Positions 1,790 through 13,545 of a stretch of 34,900 nucleotides of DNA are shown here, in pieces. Within the stretch, counting starts at the first letter, position 1, and each line of letters starts with the position of its first letter. A program made the position numbers and the translations under genes. The stretch comes from Clostridia bacterium (lineage in GTDB: Bacteria; Bacillota; DUOV01; Zhaonellaceae). The notes under the pieces are model-generated. The model searched no databases, had not been told where the DNA came from, and saw only the letters and a list, made by a program, of their open reading frames with translations. The DNA lies in assembly GCA_012838615.1 (NCBI GenBank), contig DUOV01000133.1:1-34900 (forward strand), in the 5' to 3' direction.

Positions 1790-2866
1790 TTAACCGTCTC
1801 CTAACTCCTGACACACCAGATCTCCCATTTCTCTGGTGCCAACCAGTATTTTCCCTTCTTCCATAATATCTGGAGTCCGATAACCTTTTGCTAATACTTT
1901 ATTAACAGCTTCCTGAATTTCTCTGGCCCCATCCAATTCTTTAAAAGAATATTCCAGCATCATGGCAGCGGATAAAATAGTAGCTAAAGGATTAGCTTTA
2001 TCTTGACCTGCAATATCCGGAGCTGAACCATGGGAAGGCTCATATAAGGCTACTTTTCCTCCTATGCTGGCCGAAGGAAGCATACCAATAGAACCGGTAA
2101 GCATAGAAGCTTGATCTGTTAAAATGTCACCAAACATATTCTCAGTAACAATTACATCAAACTGAGTTGGCCGACGTACTAATTGCATGGCTGCGTTATC
2201 AACATACATATGCTCCAACTCTACGTCAGGATAATCTTGGTGAACTTGTTTAGTAACTTCTCTCCAAAGCCTTGAACTTTCTAAAACGTTAGCTTTATCA
2301 ACGGAGGTAACTTTCTTACGTCGGTTTCTGGCTACTTCAAAAGCAAGTCTTGTAATCCGCTCTATTTCTGAGGTACTGTAAATTAAGGTATCAATAGCCA
2401 CTTCTTCACCGGTTTCCTTCTTCTCCCGCTTTTTCTCTCCAAAATAGAGTCCGCCGGTTAGCTCACGAATAGTTACTATATCAGTACCTAATATCACTTC
2501 CCTCTTTAAAGTCGAAGCGTCAACTAAAGGTTCATATAAAATGGAAGGACGAATATTAGCATAAAGTCCTAACTTTTTTCTTAAAGGAAGTAGAGCTGCA
2601 GCTTCCGGCCTTTGGGCCACGGGCAGATTATCCCACTTAGGACCCCCTACGGCACCGAGTAAAATTGCATCACTATTTTCACAAAGTTCTATGGTTTCAT
2701 CTGGTAAAGGTGTGCCAGTAGCGTCAACTGCTGCACCACCAATCAAACCTTCCGTATAAGAAAAATCCAAGTTATACTTTCTTCCAACTATATCTAAAAC
2801 CCGGATTGCTTGGGGAACTATTTCAACCCCAATACCATCTCCCGGCAAAACTGCGATTCTAGGCAT
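1790..2866 (-). CDS. leuB: 3-isopropylmalate dehydrogenase
   Basis: This is a cytoplasmic NAD-dependent enzyme that oxidises and decarboxylates 3-isopropylmalate to 2-oxoisocaproate in leucine synthesis; in citramalate-pathway organisms it also acts on methylmalate. The 358 residues are a normal length. Visible family signatures are the start [17 protein letters not shown], the conserved YANIRPS segment, the [14 protein letters not shown] loop, the DNAAMQLVR segment and the nucleotide-binding [17 protein letters not shown] near residue 280. The ATG overlaps the end of leuD by 8 nt, implying translational coupling. The next gene, cimA, follows after a single base. Confidence 0.96.
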
Positions 2867-3359
2867 TACCCTTCACCTTCTTTGCAACATAGTTCATTAG
2901 TCCACCAGCCTCAATCAATTCCTGCATAAACGACGGGAAGGGCTGGGCCTGAAAAATTTCACCAGTAGTCAAATTTTTGATTTGCCCACTTTCGGTATCT
3001 ATAGCCACTTGGTGCCCGGCCTCAACCCTTTCTGCTGCTTCCGGGGATTCAAAAATCGGAAGACCAATGTTGATTGAGTTACGGTAAAAAATTCGGGCAA
3101 AAGAATGGGCTATAACAGCAGCTACCCCACTAGCCTTAATGGCAATAGGCGCATGTTCTCTGGAACTGCCGCAACCAAAGTTTTTACCTGCAACGATGAT
3201 GTCTCCCGGTTGAACTTTAGAACTAAATGACGGATCTGCATCTTCCATACAGTGTCTAGCCAGTTCTTCCGGAGAAGAAGTGTTTAGATATCTAGCCGGT
3301 ATGATTACATCTGTATCTACATCATTACCAAATTTCCATGTTTTTCCTTCCAACTTCAT
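2859..3359 (-). CDS. leuD: 3-isopropylmalate dehydratase small subunit
   Basis: This is the swivel-domain subunit that, with LeuC, isomerises 2-isopropylmalate to 3-isopropylmalate, and citramalate to 3-methylmalate. The 166 residues are the short archaeal/HacB-type form, matching the 420-aa LeuC next to it. The conserved core [15 protein letters not shown] (about 13-27) and [12 protein letters not shown] (about 60-71) that binds substrate are intact. Its ATG abuts the leuC stop with no spacer and its 3' end overlaps leuB by 8 nt. Confidence 0.95.
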
Positions 3360-4622
3360 CTATTTCACCTCCCAGGGGGCTGCAATCCGGCCTAAGACAG
3401 CACTAGCTGCCGCAACTGCAGGACTAGCTAAATATACTTCACTTTCCGGATGTCCCATGCGACCAACGAAATTCCTGTTGGTAGTAGAAAGAGCACGCTC
3501 CCCTTTAGCTAAAATACCCATGTGGCCACCTAAACAAGGCCCGCAAGTTGGTGTGCTGATAGCTGCTCCCGCATCAAGAAAGATATCAAAAAGTCCTTCA
3601 TGCATAGCTTGGCGATATATCTCTTGAGTACCAGGGATGACTATTAAACGAATTTCCTTATGAACCTTATGACCTTTTAAGATACTTGCTGCCACTCTTA
3701 AATCTTCCATCCTCCCATTAGTGCACGATCCGATTACAACCTGATCAATGGTGACATTCCCCACTTGGCTGATAGGTTTTGTATTTTCCGGCAAATGGGG
3801 AAAAGCTACCTGAGGTTCAATTTTGGAACAATCATATTCAATAACTTGGGCATACTTGGCATCAGCATCGCTCTGGAAGACTTTCCACGTCCGCTTAGCT
3901 CTGTTTTTAACATAAGCTTCCGTTATCTCATCAAAATGGATAATCCCGTTTTTACCCCCTGCTTCAATAGCCATATTACACATGGTAAAGCGATTATCCA
4001 TAGATAAGCCGGAAATAGCTTCACCGGTAAACTCCATAGCCATGTAGCGAGCGCCATCCACTCCTATATCACCGATGGTGTGCAGAATAAGGTCTTTTCC
4101 GCCTACGTAAGGCTGTAATTTGCCATAGTAGACGAATTTTATTGATTCCGGCACCTTAAACCAAGCTTCTCCTGTAGCCATGCCGGCTGCCATATCAGTA
4201 CTGCCCACACCTGTAGCAAAAGCTCCTAAAGCACCATAAGTACAGGTATGAGAATCAGCGCCTATCACAACATCTCCCGGAACTACAATACCTTGTTCTG
4301 GAAGAAGACAGTGTTCTACGCCCATCTGGCCAACATCAAAATAATTAGTTAAATCCTGTTCTCTGGCAAATTCTCTTAGCATTTTGGCCTGCTCGGCAGA
4401 TTTAATATCTTTATTGGGTGTAAAGTGATCGGGAACTAAACAAACCCGTTCCTTATCAAATACTTTTTCTAAGCCCAGTTTCTTAAACTCTTTAATGGCT
4501 ACCGGTGCAGTTATATCATTGCCTAAGACAATATCCAGCTTGGCATTAATCAGTTGACCAGGTTCCACTTTTTCTAAGCCGGCATGTTCAGCCAGAATTT
4601 TTTCAGTTATGGTCATTCCCAT
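3360..4622 (-). CDS. leuC: 3-isopropylmalate dehydratase large subunit
   Basis: This aconitase-family [4Fe-4S] subunit is the partner of LeuD. The three cluster ligands are visible: Cys300 in GSCTNGR, and Cys360 and Cys363 in TCGPCLGG. The [13 protein letters not shown] block (121-133) is also present. At 420 residues it belongs to the short LeuC/HacA type, as in archaea and many Clostridia, rather than the roughly 465-aa E. coli type. An AAGGAGG ribosome site precedes the chosen ATG; a second ATG two codons later is possible. The 70-nt gap to leuA is the longest inside the operon and carries an inverted repeat. Confidence 0.95.
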
Positions 4623-4645: not shown

Positions 4646-4698
4646 CCTTGGGTCAGTCCCTAGTCCCCAGTAACTGGCGACTGGGGACTTTACTAACG
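4646..4698. repeat. AGTCCCC/AGTCGTT-type repeat with perfect 10-bp inverted repeat
   Basis: AGTCCCCAGT (4662-4671) and ACTGGGGACT (4680-4689) form a perfect stem with an 8-nt loop. They are flanked by heptamer-like units (CAGTCCC TAGTCCC on one side; ACTAACGACTAAG on the other). The same TTAGTCGTTAGT word occurs in the ilv leader near 13121-13152. The repeat runs into the 3' end of leuA and supplies its last codons and stop. It lies between leuA and leuC and could form an RNA hairpin within the operon transcript. Confidence 0.7.
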
Positions 4699-6204
4699 AC
4701 TAAGCTCATATTCTACTTTATTTATAGCGTTAATGTAGGCTTTGGCACTTGCTTCGATAATATCAGTACTTAAGCCCCGACCAAGGTAAGTTTTACCTTC
4801 AAAATCAACCTTAACAGTAACTTCACCCATAGCGTCTTTACCGCCGGTAATAGCATTTAAGTTGTAATAACTTAAAGACACTCCTAATTGGCTGATTTTA
4901 TCAATAGCTTTAAAAACTGCATCAACGGGCCCGTCTCCACAAGCAGCTTCTTCAACTACTTCATCGCCGATTTTTAAACCGATAGTGGCTGTAGGCACTA
5001 CCCGGCTACCGCTGAATAAGTGGAGGGAATCAAAAACATATTTTTCCGGTAAAGCTCTTGTTTCATCTTCCACGATAGCTTCTAGGTCTTTGTCGGTAAT
5101 TTCTTTTTTCCGGTCAGCTAAGTTTTTAAACCGGATAAAAGCTTTTACTAATTCTTCTTCAGTAAGTTCAAAGCCTAATTCCTCCAGCCGCTGCCTGAAA
5201 GCATGACGGCCCGAATGTTTGCCCAGTACAATATTGTTTTGGATAATACCCAGCTTCGCCGGATCCATGATTTCGTAAGTAGTTCTTTCTTTTAGCACAC
5301 CGTCTTGGTGAATCCCTGACTCGTGGGCAAAAGCATTTTTTCCTACAATAGCCTTATTGTATTGAACAGGCATACCTGTTAAAGAGCTGACTAAGCGGCT
5401 GGTACGGTATATTTCTTCCGTGTTGATGCTAACCTCCCGGCCGTAATAATCTTTACGGGTCAGAAGAGCCATCACAACCTCTTCCAATGCCGTATTGCCT
5501 GCTCTTTCACCAATCCCGTTGACGGCACATTCTATCTGCTCAGCACCGTTTTCAACAGCTGCCAGAGAATTGGCTACTGCCATACCTAAATCGTTATGGC
5601 AATGGACACTAAGAATAGCTTTATCCATATTGGGGACACCTGTTTTGATAGCTCTGATAAATTCACCAAACTCTTTTGGGGTAGCGTAGCCTACCGTATC
5701 AGGTATGTTGATAACTGTTGCCCCGGCATTTATAGCTGTTTCTACAACCTTGAGCATAAAGTCTATATCGGTGCGCGAACCATCTTCCGGTGAAAATTCT
5801 ATATCAGAGGTAAACTGTTTTGCGTACCGTATACCTTTGTCTATGGCTGCCAGCACCTGTTCCCTGGTTTTCTTCAATTTATATTTCATATGAATATCAG
5901 AAGTAGCAATAAAAGTGTGAATACGGGGTTTTTCAGCATACCTCAAGGCTTCCCAAGCCCGGTCAATGTCTTTTTCGTTAATCCGAGCCAAAGCTGCAAT
6001 AGTCGGCCCTTTAATCTTTTGAGCAATAGCAGCTACAGCTTCAAAATCACCAGGGGAGGCAATTGGAAAACCCGCTTCAATTACATCGACTCCTAGCTTG
6101 GCCAGCTGTCCTGCAATTTCCAGTTTTTCTTGAATGTTTAAACTGACGCCGGGGGATTGTTCCCCATCCCGTAGTGTAGTATCAAAAATATAGACTCTGT
6201 TCAC
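4693..6204 (-). CDS. leuA: 2-isopropylmalate synthase
   Basis: The enzyme condenses 2-oxoisovalerate and acetyl-CoA, the committed step of leucine synthesis. The 503 residues have the [12 protein letters not shown] motif (8-19), the metal-binding H201-C-H203-ND, the NGIGERAGN motif, and a C-terminal LeuA dimer domain (about 380-500) that in this family binds the feedback inhibitor leucine. It starts with GTG, preceded by a G-rich ribosome site, 2 nt after ilvB2. The end is odd: the last residues LSR and the TAG stop are read from a CTTAGTCGTTAG heptamer repeat unit, so the native C-terminus was probably altered by that repeat. Confidence 0.95.
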
Positions 6205-6206
6205 GA

Positions 6207-7895
6207 TTACTTCTCTCCCCCCGGGTAATAAATCATCTCATCCAGAGCCCCATTGTTGGGAACTACAGGATAAACTAATTCTTCATCGCTTATACAGCAA
6301 TCAATTAAGGTAAGCTTGCCGTTAGATAAGGCTTCAATTAAAACTGGTTCCACATCCTCAGGCTTTTCAATACGCAAGCCTACAGCACCTGGATAAGAAG
6401 TTGCCAACTTTACAAAATCCGGATTACCGGTAAAGCATACACCAGAATATCTTTTACCGCTGTTAAAGTACTGCAATTGTTTAACCAAGCATAAGTGAGA
6501 ATTGTTAAGCAGCAATATTTTTAAGGGAAGTTTTTGCTCTGTTGCTGTACCTAACTCACCCATATTCATTTGGAAACTTCCATCACCTGTTACAGCTACT
6601 ACTAGGGAGTCTGGAGAAGCTAATTGAGCTCCTACTGCCGCCGGCAATCCGTAACCCATAGTGCCTAATCCCCCAGAGGTAATAAAACTCCTTGGTTTAG
6701 TAAAGTTATAGTATTGGGCAGTCCACATTTGATGTTGACCTACGTCAGTAGTTACAATGGCCTTACCTTTGGTCAACTCTCCCAGCTTTTGAAGTATATA
6801 TTGAGGGCGAAGACTGCTTTGATTATCACCATAAGCAAGGGGATGAGATTTTTTCCAAGCCCTAATTTGCTCCAGCCATGCATCATTTCGCCTAGGATTT
6901 ATTCTTTTTAGCAATTCATTTAAAACAAATTTCACATCACCCACGATAGGTAAATCTGCTGCCACATTTTTACCTATTTCAGCCGGATCTATATCGATGT
7001 GAACCACTTTGGCCTGAGGAGCAAATTTATTGACTGCACTTGTTACCCGATCATCAAAACGCATTCCTATACCTATAAGAAGATCACAATTCTGAACGGC
7101 ATAATTGGCATATGGTGTGCCATGTAAGCCCAGCATACCTAAAGAAAGAGGATGGTCTTCAGGAAAAGAGCCTAAACCCATTAAAGTAGTAGTAACCGGA
7201 GCATTCACCTTTTCAGCCAATTCTTTCAAATCCTCCCAAGCGTTTGAGGAGATGACTCCACCGCCGGAGCAAATCAAAGGCCTCTCGGCTTGGGCTAAAA
7301 GGCCAGCCAGATTTTTAATCTGGGCCGGATGTCCTTTATAAGTCGGTTTATATCCTTGTAGTTCAACCTTTGCTACCGGCCTATAATCAAAAACTTTTCC
7401 CGCCACATTTTTAGGTAAATCGATGAGTACAGGTCCCGGCCGGCCTGTACTGGCTATATGAAAAGCTTCCTTTATTATTACTGGTAAATCATCAACATTT
7501 TTAACCAGGTAATTGTGTTTAGTAATGGGCATGGTAATACCGGTTATATCAACTTCCTGAAAAGCATCAGTTCCAACCATATCTGTGCTGACCTGGCCGG
7601 TAATGGCAACTACAGGAATTGAATCCATATAAGCAGTTGCCAAGCCGGTCACCAGATTAGTCGCCCCTGGCCCCGAAGTAGCTATACAGACGCCAGGTTT
7701 TCCTGTTACCCTAGCATACCCACTAGCCGCATGAACAGCAGCCTGCTCCTGTCTGACCAGAACATGAGTTATTTTACTTGACTCTAGTAGGGCATCATAA
7801 AGGGCTAATACGGATCCTCCGGGATAACCAAATATATATTTAACATTTTCTTCTTCCAGAAACTTAATTAACGCTTGTGCGCCTGTGAGCCTCAC
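6207..7895 (-). CDS. Divergent second acetolactate synthase large subunit
   Basis: This 562-aa ThDP-dependent enzyme is paralogous to the ilvB product two genes upstream. The catalytic Glu50 ([15 protein letters not shown]), the GDGS ThDP motif (437-440) and NN (464-465) are present, so it should bind cofactor. The active-site segment is unusual: canonical LGMVRQWQ reads LCLVKQLQ here, with Leu474 in place of the Trp that in AHAS enzymes shapes 2-oxobutyrate preference and sulfonylurea binding. The C-terminus is also divergent. The start is GTG, about 10 nt after a GGAGG. It sits where ilvC is usually found in such operons. It may be a pyruvate-biased AHAS isoform sharing IlvN, or a related carboligase; the substrate is not certain. 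Confidence 0.85.
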
Positions 7896-7924: not shown

Positions 7925-8434
7925 TTACAGGGCTTCCTGATTCCTGCCGTTTTTGCTTTTTGCACCTCTGGCCATAGCAATTTTTCCCGTTCTAACAACT
8001 TCCTTGATACCGAAAGGACGAAGTGCACTTTCTATAGCATTAATTTTGCCTTCATCTCCCGTAGCCTCAATGATTAAGCTATTACGACCAATATCTACAA
8101 TCCTGGCCCGGAAAATCTCAACTATTTGCATAATCTCTCCTCTGATGGCCGGATCAGCATTAACCTTGATTAAAATCATTTCCCTATCCACATGTTCATC
8201 GTTAGTAATATCGGTAAGTTTAATTACCTCAATGAGCTTATATAACTGTTTACCAACTTGTTCGATAACCCGATCGTCACCTTCAACTACAATAGTCATC
8301 CTGGAGATAGCAGGATTTTCTGTTCTGCCTACGGCAAGGCTTTCAATATTGTACCCCCGCCTTGCAAAGAGTCCGGCAATCCGGGTTAAGACCCCCGGCT
8401 TGTTTTCAACAAGGACAGTTAACGTATGCTTCAC
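7925..8434 (-). CDS. ilvN: Acetolactate synthase regulatory subunit
   Basis: This small subunit of acetohydroxyacid synthase stimulates the catalytic subunit and gives valine feedback inhibition. The 169 residues are typical. The N-terminal ACT domain shows the classic VENKPGVLTRIAGLFARRGY pattern (about 9-28), followed by the second conserved domain (about 80-160). It lies 6 nt downstream of ilvB and 29 nt upstream of the second large-subunit gene, so it could serve both catalytic subunits. An AGGGAG site precedes the ATG. Confidence 0.95.
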   Translation of the reverse strand: MKHTLTVLVENKPGVLTRIAGLFARRGYNIESLAVGRTENPAISRMTIVVEGDDRVIEQVGKQLYKLIEVIKLTDITNDEHVDREMILIKVNADPAIRGEIMQIVEIFRARIVDIGRNSLIIEATGDEGKINAIESALRPFGIKEVVRTGKIAMARGAKSKNGRNQEAL

Positions 8435-8440
8435 TTCTCC

Positions 8441-10189
8441 CTACCTCCCTAAAATATTATTGATGGATGCACCAGCGGGAACCATGGGAAATACATTTTC
8501 TGTATCATCCACATGAAAATCGAGAATATAACAACTGGGTGAAGCAACAGCTTCTTCAAGAGCCGGACGTACGTCTTCCGGTCTTGTAATGCGCAATCCC
8601 TTAAGTCCGTAAGCTTCCGCCAACTTTACAAAATCGGGCTGACCGGACATATTAGTGTGGGAGTACCTTTCTTCAAAGAATAACTCCTGCCACTGACGAA
8701 CCATACCTAGATTATGATTATTTAAAATAGCTACATTAATAGGCAGTTTATTTTGGGCAATCGTAGCAAACTCCTGTGAATTCATTTGGATACTTCCGTC
8801 ACCGGCAATATTAAACACTATTTTATCAGGATGAGCTATTTGCACGCCCATGGCAGCCGGTAAGCCAAATCCCATAGTACCGAGGCCTCCGGAAGAAATA
8901 AACCTTCGAGGCTCAGACAAAGCGTAATATTGAGCAGTCCACATCTGATGTTGACCCACCTCGGTACAGATAAAAGCTTCGCCTTTAGTGACTTCATAAA
9001 TCTGTTGAATTACAAATTGAGGTTTAATAAGCCGATCAGATTTTTCATAGCGTAAAGGAAACTCTTTTTTCCAACCTGCAATTTTTTCCAGCCAAGGTTT
9101 AAGATCCGGCTTAACACTTTTAGCTTTAAGAACTTTTAAAAGTTCCCTTAAAACTTGCTTTACATCGCCGGCTATAGGAATATGGGCATATACATTTTTG
9201 CCCAGCTCAGCTGGGTCAATATCAATATGAATTACCGTAGCGTTTTTAGCAAAAGTAGACAAATCCCCAGTAACTCTGTCGTCAAACCGCACCCCGATGC
9301 CTATAACCAAATCGGCTTCCCACATGGCATAATTAGCACTTACCGTGCCGTGCATACCTACCATACCTAAACACAACTCATCATTGTCAGTAAAGGCACC
9401 TTTGCCCATTAAGCTATAGGTCACAGGAAAACTTAACATTTGGGCTAAACTGGTAACCTCCTCAGCAGCTCCGGAAGCAACAGCTCCCCCACCTACAAAG
9501 ATAAGAGGTTGTTTAGCCTCCAACATGGCTTGAGCAGCTTTACCTATCTGGGTAGCATTTATTACATTATTAATCCGGTAACCTTGCAAATCCAGCTCAG
9601 GTGGATAATTAAAAGACGCCTTCTTAGTAGTTATGTCCTTTGGTATATCAATTAAAACAGGGCCCGGACGGCCGGTAGTGGCTATATGGAAAGCCTCATG
9701 GACTACTCGGGCCAAATCCTTAACGTCTTTAACCAGGTAGCTGTATTTAGTTATAGGTGTAGTAATACCTGTAATATCTGCCTCCTGAAATGAATCCCGA
9801 CCTAAAGCAGCTAAAGCTACCTGTCCTGTAATAGCCACTAAAGGGATCGAATCCATATAGGCATTGGCGATACCTGTTACCAGGTTCGTTGCTCCTGGGC
9901 CTGAGGTTGCAATGCAAACACCGGGTTTCCCTGTGGAACGTGCATAACCATCGGCTGCGTGAACTGCGCCTTGCTCATGTCTTGTTAAAATGTGAGTAAT
10001 ATTCTTATTTTTATATAAGGCATCGTAAATTGGGAGTACTGCACCCCCCGGATAACCAAATATAACCTTAACTCCTTCAGCTTCTAGTGCTTTGAGCAGA
10101 ATTTCTGCTCCGGTAAATTCATTGGTATGGAGTTCTTGGCTCACCTCATGCAACATTTTTTCCCTTTGTTTAAGTGGTAAACTTGTCAT
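8441..10189 (-). CDS. ilvB: Acetolactate synthase large subunit
   Basis: This is the catalytic subunit of acetohydroxyacid synthase. It makes 2-acetolactate from two pyruvates (valine, leucine) and 2-aceto-2-hydroxybutyrate from pyruvate and 2-oxobutyrate (isoleucine). The 582 residues contain the catalytic Glu72 ([15 protein letters not shown]), ThDP motif GDGS (463-466) with NN (490-491), and the canonical [12 protein letters not shown] with Trp500. Unlike the second copy it looks fully standard. The chosen ATG overlaps the end of ilvD by 20 nt and has a GGGGG upstream; ATG at 10156, with AGGGA before it, is an alternative start that would avoid the overlap. Confidence 0.95.
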
Positions 10190-11843
10190 TAAAAATCGCC
10201 CCCGTACTTGCCGAAGTAACTAATCTCGCGTATCTGGCTAAATATCCTTTAGTAATCTTTGGTTCAGGCTTACGCCAACGTTTTTTCCTCTTTTCCAGTT
10301 CATCAACTTCCACTAAAATATCTAACTTATTATTTGGAATATCTATGCTAATCAAATCCCCATCTTGGACTAAACTTATAGGTCCTCCTTCCGCTGCTTC
10401 AGGAGAAATATGGCCGATGGAGGCCCCCCTAGTTGCTCCCGAGAAACGACCATCAGTAATAAGTGCTACTGACTCGCCAAGCCCCATACCTGATACAGCA
10501 GCAGTAGGTGTGAGCATCTCTCTCATGCCAGGACCTCCTTTTGGTCCCTCATAGCGGATAACAATAACATCCCCCGGTTTAATCTTTAACCCCATAATAG
10601 CTTCTACGGCTTCTTCTTCTGATTCAAAAACCCGAGCCGGACCTGTATGAACCATCATTTCAGGTGCAACAGCACCTTTTTTCACTACTGCACCTTCCGG
10701 TGCCAAAGAACCCCAAAGAACAGCCAAGCCACCGTCAGGGCTGTAAGGATCTTCTACCGGGCGAATGATCTTTCTGTCCTTTACTTTAGCCCCAGCCAAA
10801 TTATCATTCCATTGTTTGGTAGTTACTGTTAGTGAATTAGTGTTGATCAAGTTTAATTTAGATAACTCAAGGACTACAGCCGGGATACCTCCAGCCATAT
10901 CTAAATCATCAATAAAATGATTACCCGCCGGAGCAAGTTTGCATAAATGAGGTGTTTTTTTCGAGATCCGGTTGAAATCCTCAAAACCTATTTTTACTCC
11001 TGCTTCATGGGCAATAGCAGGTAAATGTAAAGCTGTATTAGTTGAGCAGCCTAGAGCCATATCTACTGCTATGGCATTTTCAAAAGCTTCCTTAGTCATA
11101 ATATCTAAGGGTCGGATATTCTTTTCTAGTAAGGCCATAATTTGCATTCCGGCCCTTTTAGCCAGCCTAATACGATTGGCGTTAACTGCCGGGATAGTTC
11201 CATTACCAGGAAGGCCCATACCCAGCACTTCAGTTAAGCAGTTCATAGAATTGGCCGTAAACATCCCCGAGCAGGAACCACAACCGGGGCAAGCACATTC
11301 TTCAAGTTCCTGTAATCCTTCTTCAGTCATTTTACCTGCCCCTACTGAGCCTACCCCTTCAAACATGTCAGTAAGGCTCACTTTCTTACCTTGGTGAATA
11401 CCTGGTAGCATAGGACCGCCGCTGATAAAAATAGAAGGTAAGTTTAGGCGAGCAGCGGCCATCAGCATACCTGGAACTACTTTGTCACAGTTTGGTATAA
11501 AGACTAACGCATCAAAAGGATGGGCTGTAGCCATGATTTCTATGGAATCGGCAATTAATTCCCTACTGGCTAAGGAATATTTCATCCCAGCATGATTCAT
11601 GGCAATTCCATCGCACACAGCAATAGCTGGGAACTCAAGAGGAGTTCCTCCAGCCATCCGGATTCCGGCTTTTACTGCCTGAGCAATCTGATCTAAGTGT
11701 AAGTGGCCAGGTACAACTTCATTTTGAGCGTTAACAACTCCTATGATTGGCCTGGATAACTCTTCGTCTGTAAGTCCTAATGCTTTAAACAAAGAACGAT
11801 GAGGTGCTTTTTCAACCCCTTGTTTCATTTGTAGGCTGCGCAT
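10170..11843 (-). CDS. ilvD: Dihydroxy-acid dehydratase
   Basis: This Fe-S enzyme dehydrates the dihydroxy acids to 2-oxoisovalerate and 2-oxo-3-methylvalerate. The 557 residues match the family. Cluster ligands Cys119 (PNCDK) and Cys191 (CPGCGSCSG) are present. The first Cys found in [2Fe-2S]-type plant enzymes is missing ([12 protein letters not shown]), which resembles the E. coli-type, oxygen-labile enzyme and suits an anaerobe. It starts 10 nt after the ilvE stop with an AGGAG site, and its 3' end overlaps ilvB. Confidence 0.95.
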
Positions 11844-11853
11844 GCTGTCACTC

Positions 11854-12735
11854 CTAACTATTTTTGATCAGGGGACCGTTAACTTTAGTGAGTTCCCGAT
11901 AAGCTTTGATCAAATCATTAGTCATCGGTCCTGGCTGTCCGTTTCCGATTTGTCTGCCGTCTACACTTACGACAGGAATCAGTTCGGCAGCAGTACCAGT
12001 TAAGAAACACTCATCAGCTACATATACGTCCAGTCTGTTAAACAATTTTTCCTGAACATCTATACCCTTTTCCCTGGCTAGTTCCATAACGGTGTTACGG
12101 GTTATACCTTCCAACAAACCTACGAAAGGTGGAGGTGTGATAAGTACTCCGTTTTTAACAATGAAAACATTGTCACCCGTAGCTTCTGTTACATACCCTT
12201 CGTTATTTAAAAGAAGGGCTTCCGGTACTCCGCTTAAAATGGCTTCCATTTTGGCCATAATATTGTTTAAGTAGTTTAAGGATTTAACTCGCGGGTTAAT
12301 AGCCTCCGGATTATTTCGTCTTGTTGGTACAGTAACTATTGACATACCTTTTTGGTATAATTCCTCCGGATACAATTGAATACCGGAGGCAATACAAAAT
12401 ACTGAAGCTTTAGGACACTTCCGCGGGTCAAGGCCTAAATCACCCTTGCCTCTAGTAACAACTAAACGAATATAGGCATTATCTAAATTATTTCTACGGC
12501 AAGTCTCGATAACAACTTCCGTCATTTCCTCTTTAGTTAAACCAATGTTTAGTTGAATGACATGGGCCGATTCATATAAACGGTCAATATGTTCTTTAAG
12601 TTTAAAAACCCGTCCATGATAAGCTCTAATTCCTTCAAAAACACCATCACCATAAAGCACACCATGGTCAAAAACTGAGACAACAGCTTCTTCCTCTTTA
12701 ACAAATCTACCGTCCAAGTAAATAATTAAACTCAT
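11854..12735 (-). CDS. ilvE: Branched-chain amino acid aminotransferase
   Basis: This PLP class IV aminotransferase performs the last step to isoleucine, leucine and valine using glutamate. The 293 residues include the conserved [14 protein letters not shown] start, the PLP-lysine region [14 protein letters not shown] (about 148-161) and the [10 protein letters not shown] segment. It is the first gene of the BCAA operon. A very strong AGGAGGT site precedes the ATG at 12735. It is the direct target of the long leader (T-box plus ykkC-type aptamer). Confidence 0.94.
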
Positions 12736-12979: not shown

Positions 12980-13026
12980 ATAAAAATACCCTGCGATAAG
13001 TTCTGATGAGGAGAACCTATCCGCAG
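12980..13026 (-). terminator. Terminator of the ykkC-type riboswitch
   Basis: On the minus strand CTGCGGATAGGTTCT pairs with AGAACTTATCGCAG (12991-13026, one bulge and a mismatch), followed by GGTATTTTTAT. Its 5' arm (13012-13026) is the same sequence that forms the 3' closing strand of the aptamer. Ligand binding and termination should therefore be mutually exclusive, the arrangement of an ON switch. Confidence 0.8.
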
Positions 13027-13242
13027 AGCCTTTTATACTCACGGTGTAACAAATACCTAGCTACTTTTTAATAAAAATAGCCGTATTTGTCTGTACCGCT
13101 TGGACCAGACAGCGTAGCTGAGTCGTTAGTCCTTAGTCGTTAGTCGTTAGTAAAAGCCTATGTAGCTGCTTTAAATACTAAAGACTAATGACTGGTTTCT
13201 AATGACACCGCAGGCACCCGGAACCCTAGGTACACTTCCCTC
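13008..13242 (-). ncRNA. ykkC-family riboswitch (probably ppGpp-type) upstream of ilvE
   Basis: Minus-strand conserved blocks of the ykkC class are visible: AGTGTACCTAGGGTTCC (13220-13236), GGTCCAAGCGGTACAG (13091-13106), a P3 hairpin (ACAAATAC at 13083-13090 with GTATTTGT at 13049-13056), and a 3' block ending GGATAGGTTCTCCTC. TGTACC (13229-13234) pairs with GGTACA (13092-13097). GAGG/CCTC closes the base. Known subtypes sense guanidine, PRPP or ppGpp; the ppGpp subtype is associated with branched-chain amino acid genes, hence the assignment. The ligand is inferred from context, not read from the sequence. The loop between the first two blocks is enlarged by a repeat insertion (13111-13206). 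Confidence 0.8.
13121..13193. repeat. AGTCGTT heptamer repeat and inverted copy inside the aptamer loop
   Basis: Positions 13121-13152 are a tandem heptamer run (AGTCGTT AGTCCTT AGTCGTT AGTCGTT AGTA). Positions 13176-13193 (TACTAAAGACTAATGACT) are complementary to 13135-13152 with two mismatches. A 7-bp direct repeat GTAGCTG lies at 13114-13120 and 13162-13168, bracketing the tandem part. In RNA this folds into a long hairpin extending the P2 region of the riboswitch. It is related to the repeat at 4646-4698. Confidence 0.75.
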
Positions 13243-13269
13243 ATAAAATTTTATTTGAATCCTAATACT

Positions 13270-13312
13270 AAAAAAACCTCTGTCCTTGGCAAAGTATGCC
13301 AGGGACGAGAGG
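13270..13312 (-). terminator. T-box terminator
   Basis: Minus strand: CCTCT-GTCC-TGGC pairs with GCCA-GGAC-AGAGG (13277-13312), followed by a run of seven T. The T-box sequence lies directly upstream and supplies the competing antiterminator strand. Confidence 0.9.
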
Positions 13313-13545
13313 TATTCTCGCGGTACCACCCTGATTGTCATATATATGACCACTTAATTCAGCGTCTATCAACGCCTGTGCAGTAACGGACACTTCCGGC
13401 TTTACTTACTAATCTTTCAGCAAAGCAGCTGAGGAGGGATACCAAAACTTTTTAAGGTACCGGCTTTCAGCTAACCCGGCTCTCTGTAACCTTAGAATTA
13501 AAGCTTTGACTTGTCTCCTGTCATAGCTTGTTGTGGCGAAAATTT
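13270..13545 (-). ncRNA. T-box leader of the ilv-leu operon
   Basis: On the minus strand the T-box sequence AGGGTGGTACCGCG (13317-13330) is exact. Stem I features are visible: AGGAGACAAG near 13510-13520, CAGAGAGCCGGG and GCTGAAAGCCGG (about 13461-13486). By spacing to the AGCTG of the 3' side, the most likely specifier codon is ATC (Ile, 13438-13440); a nearby CTC (Leu) cannot be excluded. It ends in an intrinsic terminator. Uncharged tRNA binding would favour the antiterminator and read-through into the second switch and ilvE. Confidence 0.93.

Follow-up and report, generated by a model that had tools for sequence, protein, structure and literature searches.

The locus

The window, a stretch of 34,900 nucleotides from a Clostridia bacterium (contig DUOV01000133.1), carries a ten-gene operon on its minus strand. 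Together the genes cover the synthesis of isoleucine, leucine, and valine: ilvE (11854–12735); ilvD (10170–11843); ilvB, for the first acetolactate synthase large subunit (8441–10189); ilvN (7925–8434); a second ilvB-like large-subunit gene, ilvB2, whose product is 54% identical to that of the first (6207–7895); leuA (4693–6204); leuC (3360–4622); leuD (2859–3359); leuB (1790–2866); and cimA, for citramalate synthase, which feeds isoleucine (181–1788). The two large-subunit genes flank the one small-subunit gene, ilvN.

Upstream of ilvE lies a composite leader. The region was examined on both strands, and the order on the minus strand is: a promoter; a T-box; a terminator; a ykkC-type aptamer; a second terminator; and then the operon. 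The promoter (TTGACA, 13590–13585; a 17-nt spacer; TATACT, 13567–13562) matches the consensus at 11 of 12 positions. An earlier, sequence-only reading of this DNA had claimed a promoter here, together with a ten-gene operon behind the leader. Both are present, the promoter slightly beyond the span that was given. Both terminators were called by folding, having been missed by a hairpin scan (their stems are bulged). Just upstream of the leader promoter, at about 13844–13632 on the minus strand, is a gene for an FmdB-like zinc-ribbon small protein (Pfam Zn_ribbon_8).

The T-box

The first element, at 13298–13533 on the minus strand, scores 122.7 bits with the Rfam T-box family (RF00230; cut-off 93; E 5.9e-27). 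It has in common with other members Stem I, the specifier loop, the antiterminator T-box sequence, and a terminator, and differs from them in no more than lineage detail and the C after its specifier. The T-box sequence, AGGGUGGUACCGCG (13332–13319), which binds the tRNA acceptor end, marks the antiterminator. The competing structure is a terminator hairpin followed by seven U residues (13312–13270; −21.9 kcal/mol, z −6.2 relative to shuffles). A T-box with its own terminator, as the sequence-only reading described, is therefore well founded.

In Stem I, at 13438–13440, the RF00230 alignment places AUC (isoleucine) in its specifier column, which makes this the probable specifier codon. This codon fits the amino acids made by the operon. 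In the genome's other T-boxes the column holds CUC, GCC, ACC, GUC, UGC, and others; in five ilvE-family leaders from other genomes it holds AUC. The window T-box probably reads uncharged isoleucine tRNA.

That it senses leucine or valine tRNA instead is distinctly unlikely. The published tandems of this kind are catalogued as T box-Leu (PMC9481103), a related leader (L178, described below) carries the specifier CUC, and the nucleotide after AUC in the window is C, an unusual context since A is the rule. Set against these points are the AUC column itself, in the window and in the five ilvE-family leaders elsewhere; the corresponding T-box of a second genome of the family (L174), which carries the same GGUAUCCCUCC; and the inclusion of cimA, for isoleucine, in the operon.

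The ykkC-type aptamer

The second element occupies 13006–13244 on the minus strand. Its aptamer (13237–13013) is enclosed by a closing helix, P0, with the 5′ strand at 13244–13236 and the 3′ strand at 13015–13006. The span proposed earlier, 13008–13242, agrees with the aptamer plus P0. The Rfam Guanidine-I family (RF00442) matches weakly, at 13236–13019, with 29.8 bits against a cut-off of 63 and an E-value of 0.002 in 621 bases, as expected if the aptamer belongs to ykkC subtype 2. The Rfam scan of the leader returned no separate family for this subtype.

Type-2 ykkC RNAs were gathered from other genomes and used to make covariance models. Model R1 includes the window sequence and so is not independent evidence; for this reason two further models leave the window out. 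R2 draws on six branched-chain-linked aptamers (ppGpp-type) and R3 on twelve purine-linked aptamers (PRPP-type). Both find the window at 13237–13013, R2 with 64.3 bits (E 6.7e-13) and R3 with 64.8 bits (E 3.3e-14). Neither gave a further window match at E < 1 in the same search, over 75 kb. The sequence-only reading had called for a covariance-model scan of both elements. The T-box passes Rfam; for the ykkC class, the subtype-2 models return significant matches, whereas the Guanidine-I score stays below the family's cut-off.

The helices covary strongly. In an alignment of 20 distinct ykkC sequences, all taken from other loci than the window, 97.4% of cells are paired, a figure that leans upward because the alignment was fitted to the model. 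The covariation score is 0.55; shuffles give 0.15, and sliding the helices gives no more than 0.10. Together with the R2 and R3 matches, this clearly shows a ykkC fold with its conserved core. L174, L175, L178, and L184 all retain P0, with substitutions in its base pairs.

Behind the aptamer stands the second terminator, a hairpin with a U-tract (13030–12982; −22.1 kcal/mol, z −6.1). Its 5′ arm is the 3′ end of the aptamer, overlapping P3 and P0. The same bases thus serve P3, P0, and the terminator, and the closing helix and the terminator are mutually exclusive. The earlier claim of a second terminator that shares the aptamer 3′ strand is thereby borne out.

Ligand class

Two positions in the crystal-structure numbering are informative (PMC6031431). 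Position 49 separates guanidine-type from subtype 2 ykkC RNAs, which have a pyrimidine there. Position 96 is G in PRPP aptamers; in ppGpp aptamers it is absent, A, C, or U. These positions were placed on the sequences by our own reading, from the residue names in that paper (ACACC, 74–78; G104–G105). On this placement, the window has the pyrimidine of subtype 2 at position 49 (AAG48-C49-GG); conserves ACACC, and with it C75, the base that pairs with the ligand guanine; and carries U at position 96 (13025, minus strand).

At position 96, G is present in every one of the 15 purine-linked aptamers tabulated, among them L001, which precedes purE in the same genome. Six branched-chain-linked aptamers have no G at this position: L174, before ilvE; L178, L184, and L185, before ilvB; and L175 and L177, each upstream of a gene whose product, judged from its sequence, resembles the binding protein of a branched-chain transporter. 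Against this background, U96 makes ppGpp the most likely ligand of the window aptamer. The ppGpp subtype named in the sequence-only reading is thus favored by U96, C49, the retained C75, and the branched-chain operon. In the ppGpp-bound structure of a G96A variant, the S-turn is replaced by a helix with a single bulge (PMC6031431); a G81–C95 pair in the window would bring about the same conversion.

The PRPP riboswitch (ykkC subtype 2b) has the fold and most conserved positions in common with the window aptamer. Whole-model scores alone fail to discriminate ppGpp from PRPP here, as the held-out window scores almost equally with the ppGpp-only and PRPP-only models (64.3 and 64.8 bits); for nine held-out PRPP aptamers the PRPP model is better by 14 to 45 bits. 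Moreover, the sole Rfam match of the aptamer is Guanidine-I. Nevertheless, it is very improbable that the second element responds to PRPP or guanidine rather than to ppGpp. C49 and the sub-threshold Guanidine-I score exclude the guanidine type; U stands in place of the G96 of PRPP aptamers; the operon serves branched-chain amino acid synthesis, neither purine synthesis nor efflux; and the genome has its own PRPP riboswitch with G96, L001, before purE.

L001 (G000:C186:10788–10871) scores 40.2 bits with Guanidine-I, against the same cut-off of 63. That cut-off misses subtype-2 aptamers both in the window and before purE. A further ykkC variant (L188, 1501–1611) precedes a NUDIX hydrolase-like gene, and is probably of subtype 2c (nucleoside diphosphates).

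As a predicted ppGpp riboswitch (subtype 2a), the window element resembles known examples, such as that of Desulfitobacterium hafniense ilvE, in fold, conserved core, non-G residue at position 96, terminator platform, and ilvE context. It differs in the insert within its P1b hairpin, and in that its ligand is predicted from sequence.

Repeats in and behind the leader

The extended P1b hairpin (13219–13110, minus strand) contains an insert of GACTAAC heptamer repeats that takes up about 90–100 nt of the aptamer span, a feature absent from the sequence-only reading. This heptamer recurs at dozens of places in the genome. Similar heptamer inserts occur in a ppGpp aptamer (L174) and a PRPP aptamer (L183) of genome G002, as well as in a T-box of the window genome (L008). 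Dispersed heptamers of the GACTAAC or GACTGGC type have therefore entered variable leader-RNA hairpins in two genera. Given this dispersal and the inserts elsewhere, the P1b insert was rejected as a functional domain and is treated as a tolerated repeat; it probably lengthens a variable hairpin and leaves ligand binding unchanged.

A second repeat lies behind the second terminator. At 12984–12880 (minus strand) is a decayed copy of a dispersed element of about 90 nt, with a consensus of roughly TATCAGAAAGTATAAnCTTTCTGATA..TAAGTGCAACTAAGGCTTYCGCCnGCGYC(U)AAAGRCTTGGCGNAAGCCAAGTTTTCT. The loci concerned are this copy, L158–L165, and L193–L234. Of 399 genomes sampled across the phylum, 26, from 20 genera, have the element, often in many candidate copies, and by a strict fold criterion it stands directly behind intrinsic terminators at 17 of 30 loci.

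Could this element act as a third checkpoint, again at the RNA level? It occurs throughout the phylum, its loops are GNRA-like, its final hairpin, which includes a U-tract, resembles a terminator, and another copy in the window genome stands behind the ileS T-box terminator. However, the window copy is decayed; the copies of the window genome give no covariation support; the element matches no Rfam family; the orientation of copies relative to the neighboring genes varies, and some sit between convergent genes; and none was seen in the equivalent leader at L174. A third checkpoint is accordingly most improbable, and the element was rejected as a riboswitch. Similarly improbable is the fuller proposal, in which a T box-Ile/ppGpp gate, absent from the tandem catalogue (PMC9481103), is joined by a third, phylum-wide element that would add a termination or processing step both here and behind the ileS T-box. 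Rather, the element has the look of a dispersed repeat whose copies come to lie downstream of terminators.

A probable two-checkpoint leader

The anatomy of the leader, its conservation, and its exclusive pairings together suggest a model. Very probably, this is a transcription-attenuation leader with two checkpoints, an isoleucine T-box followed by a ppGpp riboswitch, that approximates an AND gate. The transcript would start just downstream of 13562, so that the T-box, with its AUC specifier and terminator, comes first. Uncharged tRNA-Ile would stabilize the T-box antiterminator and open the first gate. At the second, (p)ppGpp would stabilize P0 and thereby block the terminator. Since each terminator would halt polymerase in the absence of the ligand for its sensor, the ilv-leu-cimA operon would be fully expressed only when both signals are given. 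Elsewhere, antitermination through the closing helix has been measured in another ppGpp riboswitch (PMC10687018), and an in vivo response of the ppGpp riboswitch from D. hafniense ilvE has been seen in Bacillus subtilis (PMC12373219).

Alternatively, the tandem could be real yet form no AND gate, if a promoter inside the leader, or leakage through one of the terminators, left one sensor dominant. Two weak promoter-like matches in the T-box region (13292–13265 and 13341–13314, each 9 of 12) may be internal starts that bypass the T-box. Such matches occur at about chance frequency, however, and the sole strong promoter is upstream of both elements. Both terminators, moreover, are strong. Amino-acid starvation raises both signals together, and the logic is consequently hard to separate in vivo. 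On balance this alternative is unlikely, and the two-checkpoint gate is the preferred reading.

Relatives and published tandems

The leader has a counterpart in G002, a complete same-family genome. At locus L174, a T-box, an aptamer, and a terminator precede ilvE and ilvD, as in the window. L178 has the reversed order, a ppGpp aptamer and then a T-box, and its CUC (leucine) specifier agrees with published T box-Leu tandems. A search of a third same-family genome (G001) with model R1 found the PRPP type alone.

Tandems of T-box and ppGpp aptamer, in either order, have been published as AND gates (eLife 2018, PMC5912903 Fig. 6C; PMC6031431; RNA Biol 2022, PMC9481103). Table 2 of the survey (PMC9481103) counts 16 in the order T box-Leu then ppGpp, and 15 reversed. 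The window leader, with its T-box and its ppGpp-type aptamer each followed by a separate terminator, has in common with the T box-Leu/ppGpp tandems (Sherlock et al. 2018; PMC9481103) the order of elements, the separate expression platforms, and the branched-chain operon. The AND-gate reading proposed for it agrees with the published model (PMC5912903 Fig. 6C; PMC9481103 Table 2). The window leader differs from those tandems in two respects: its specifier is AUC, isoleucine, whereas the survey lists T box-Leu only; and its aptamer hairpin holds the repeat insert.

The architecture and its logic are thus already known, and what the window adds is modest: one more member, whose specifier is for isoleucine and whose leader a second genus of the family shares. 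The specifier suggests that the tRNA input of such gates can be isoleucine besides leucine. In the cited literature the AND logic is a prediction, and this compact two-sensor leader could serve to test it. With this leader the natural RNA AND gates, still few in number, gain a clean example, one that is also kept by a second genus within a small and little-studied family.
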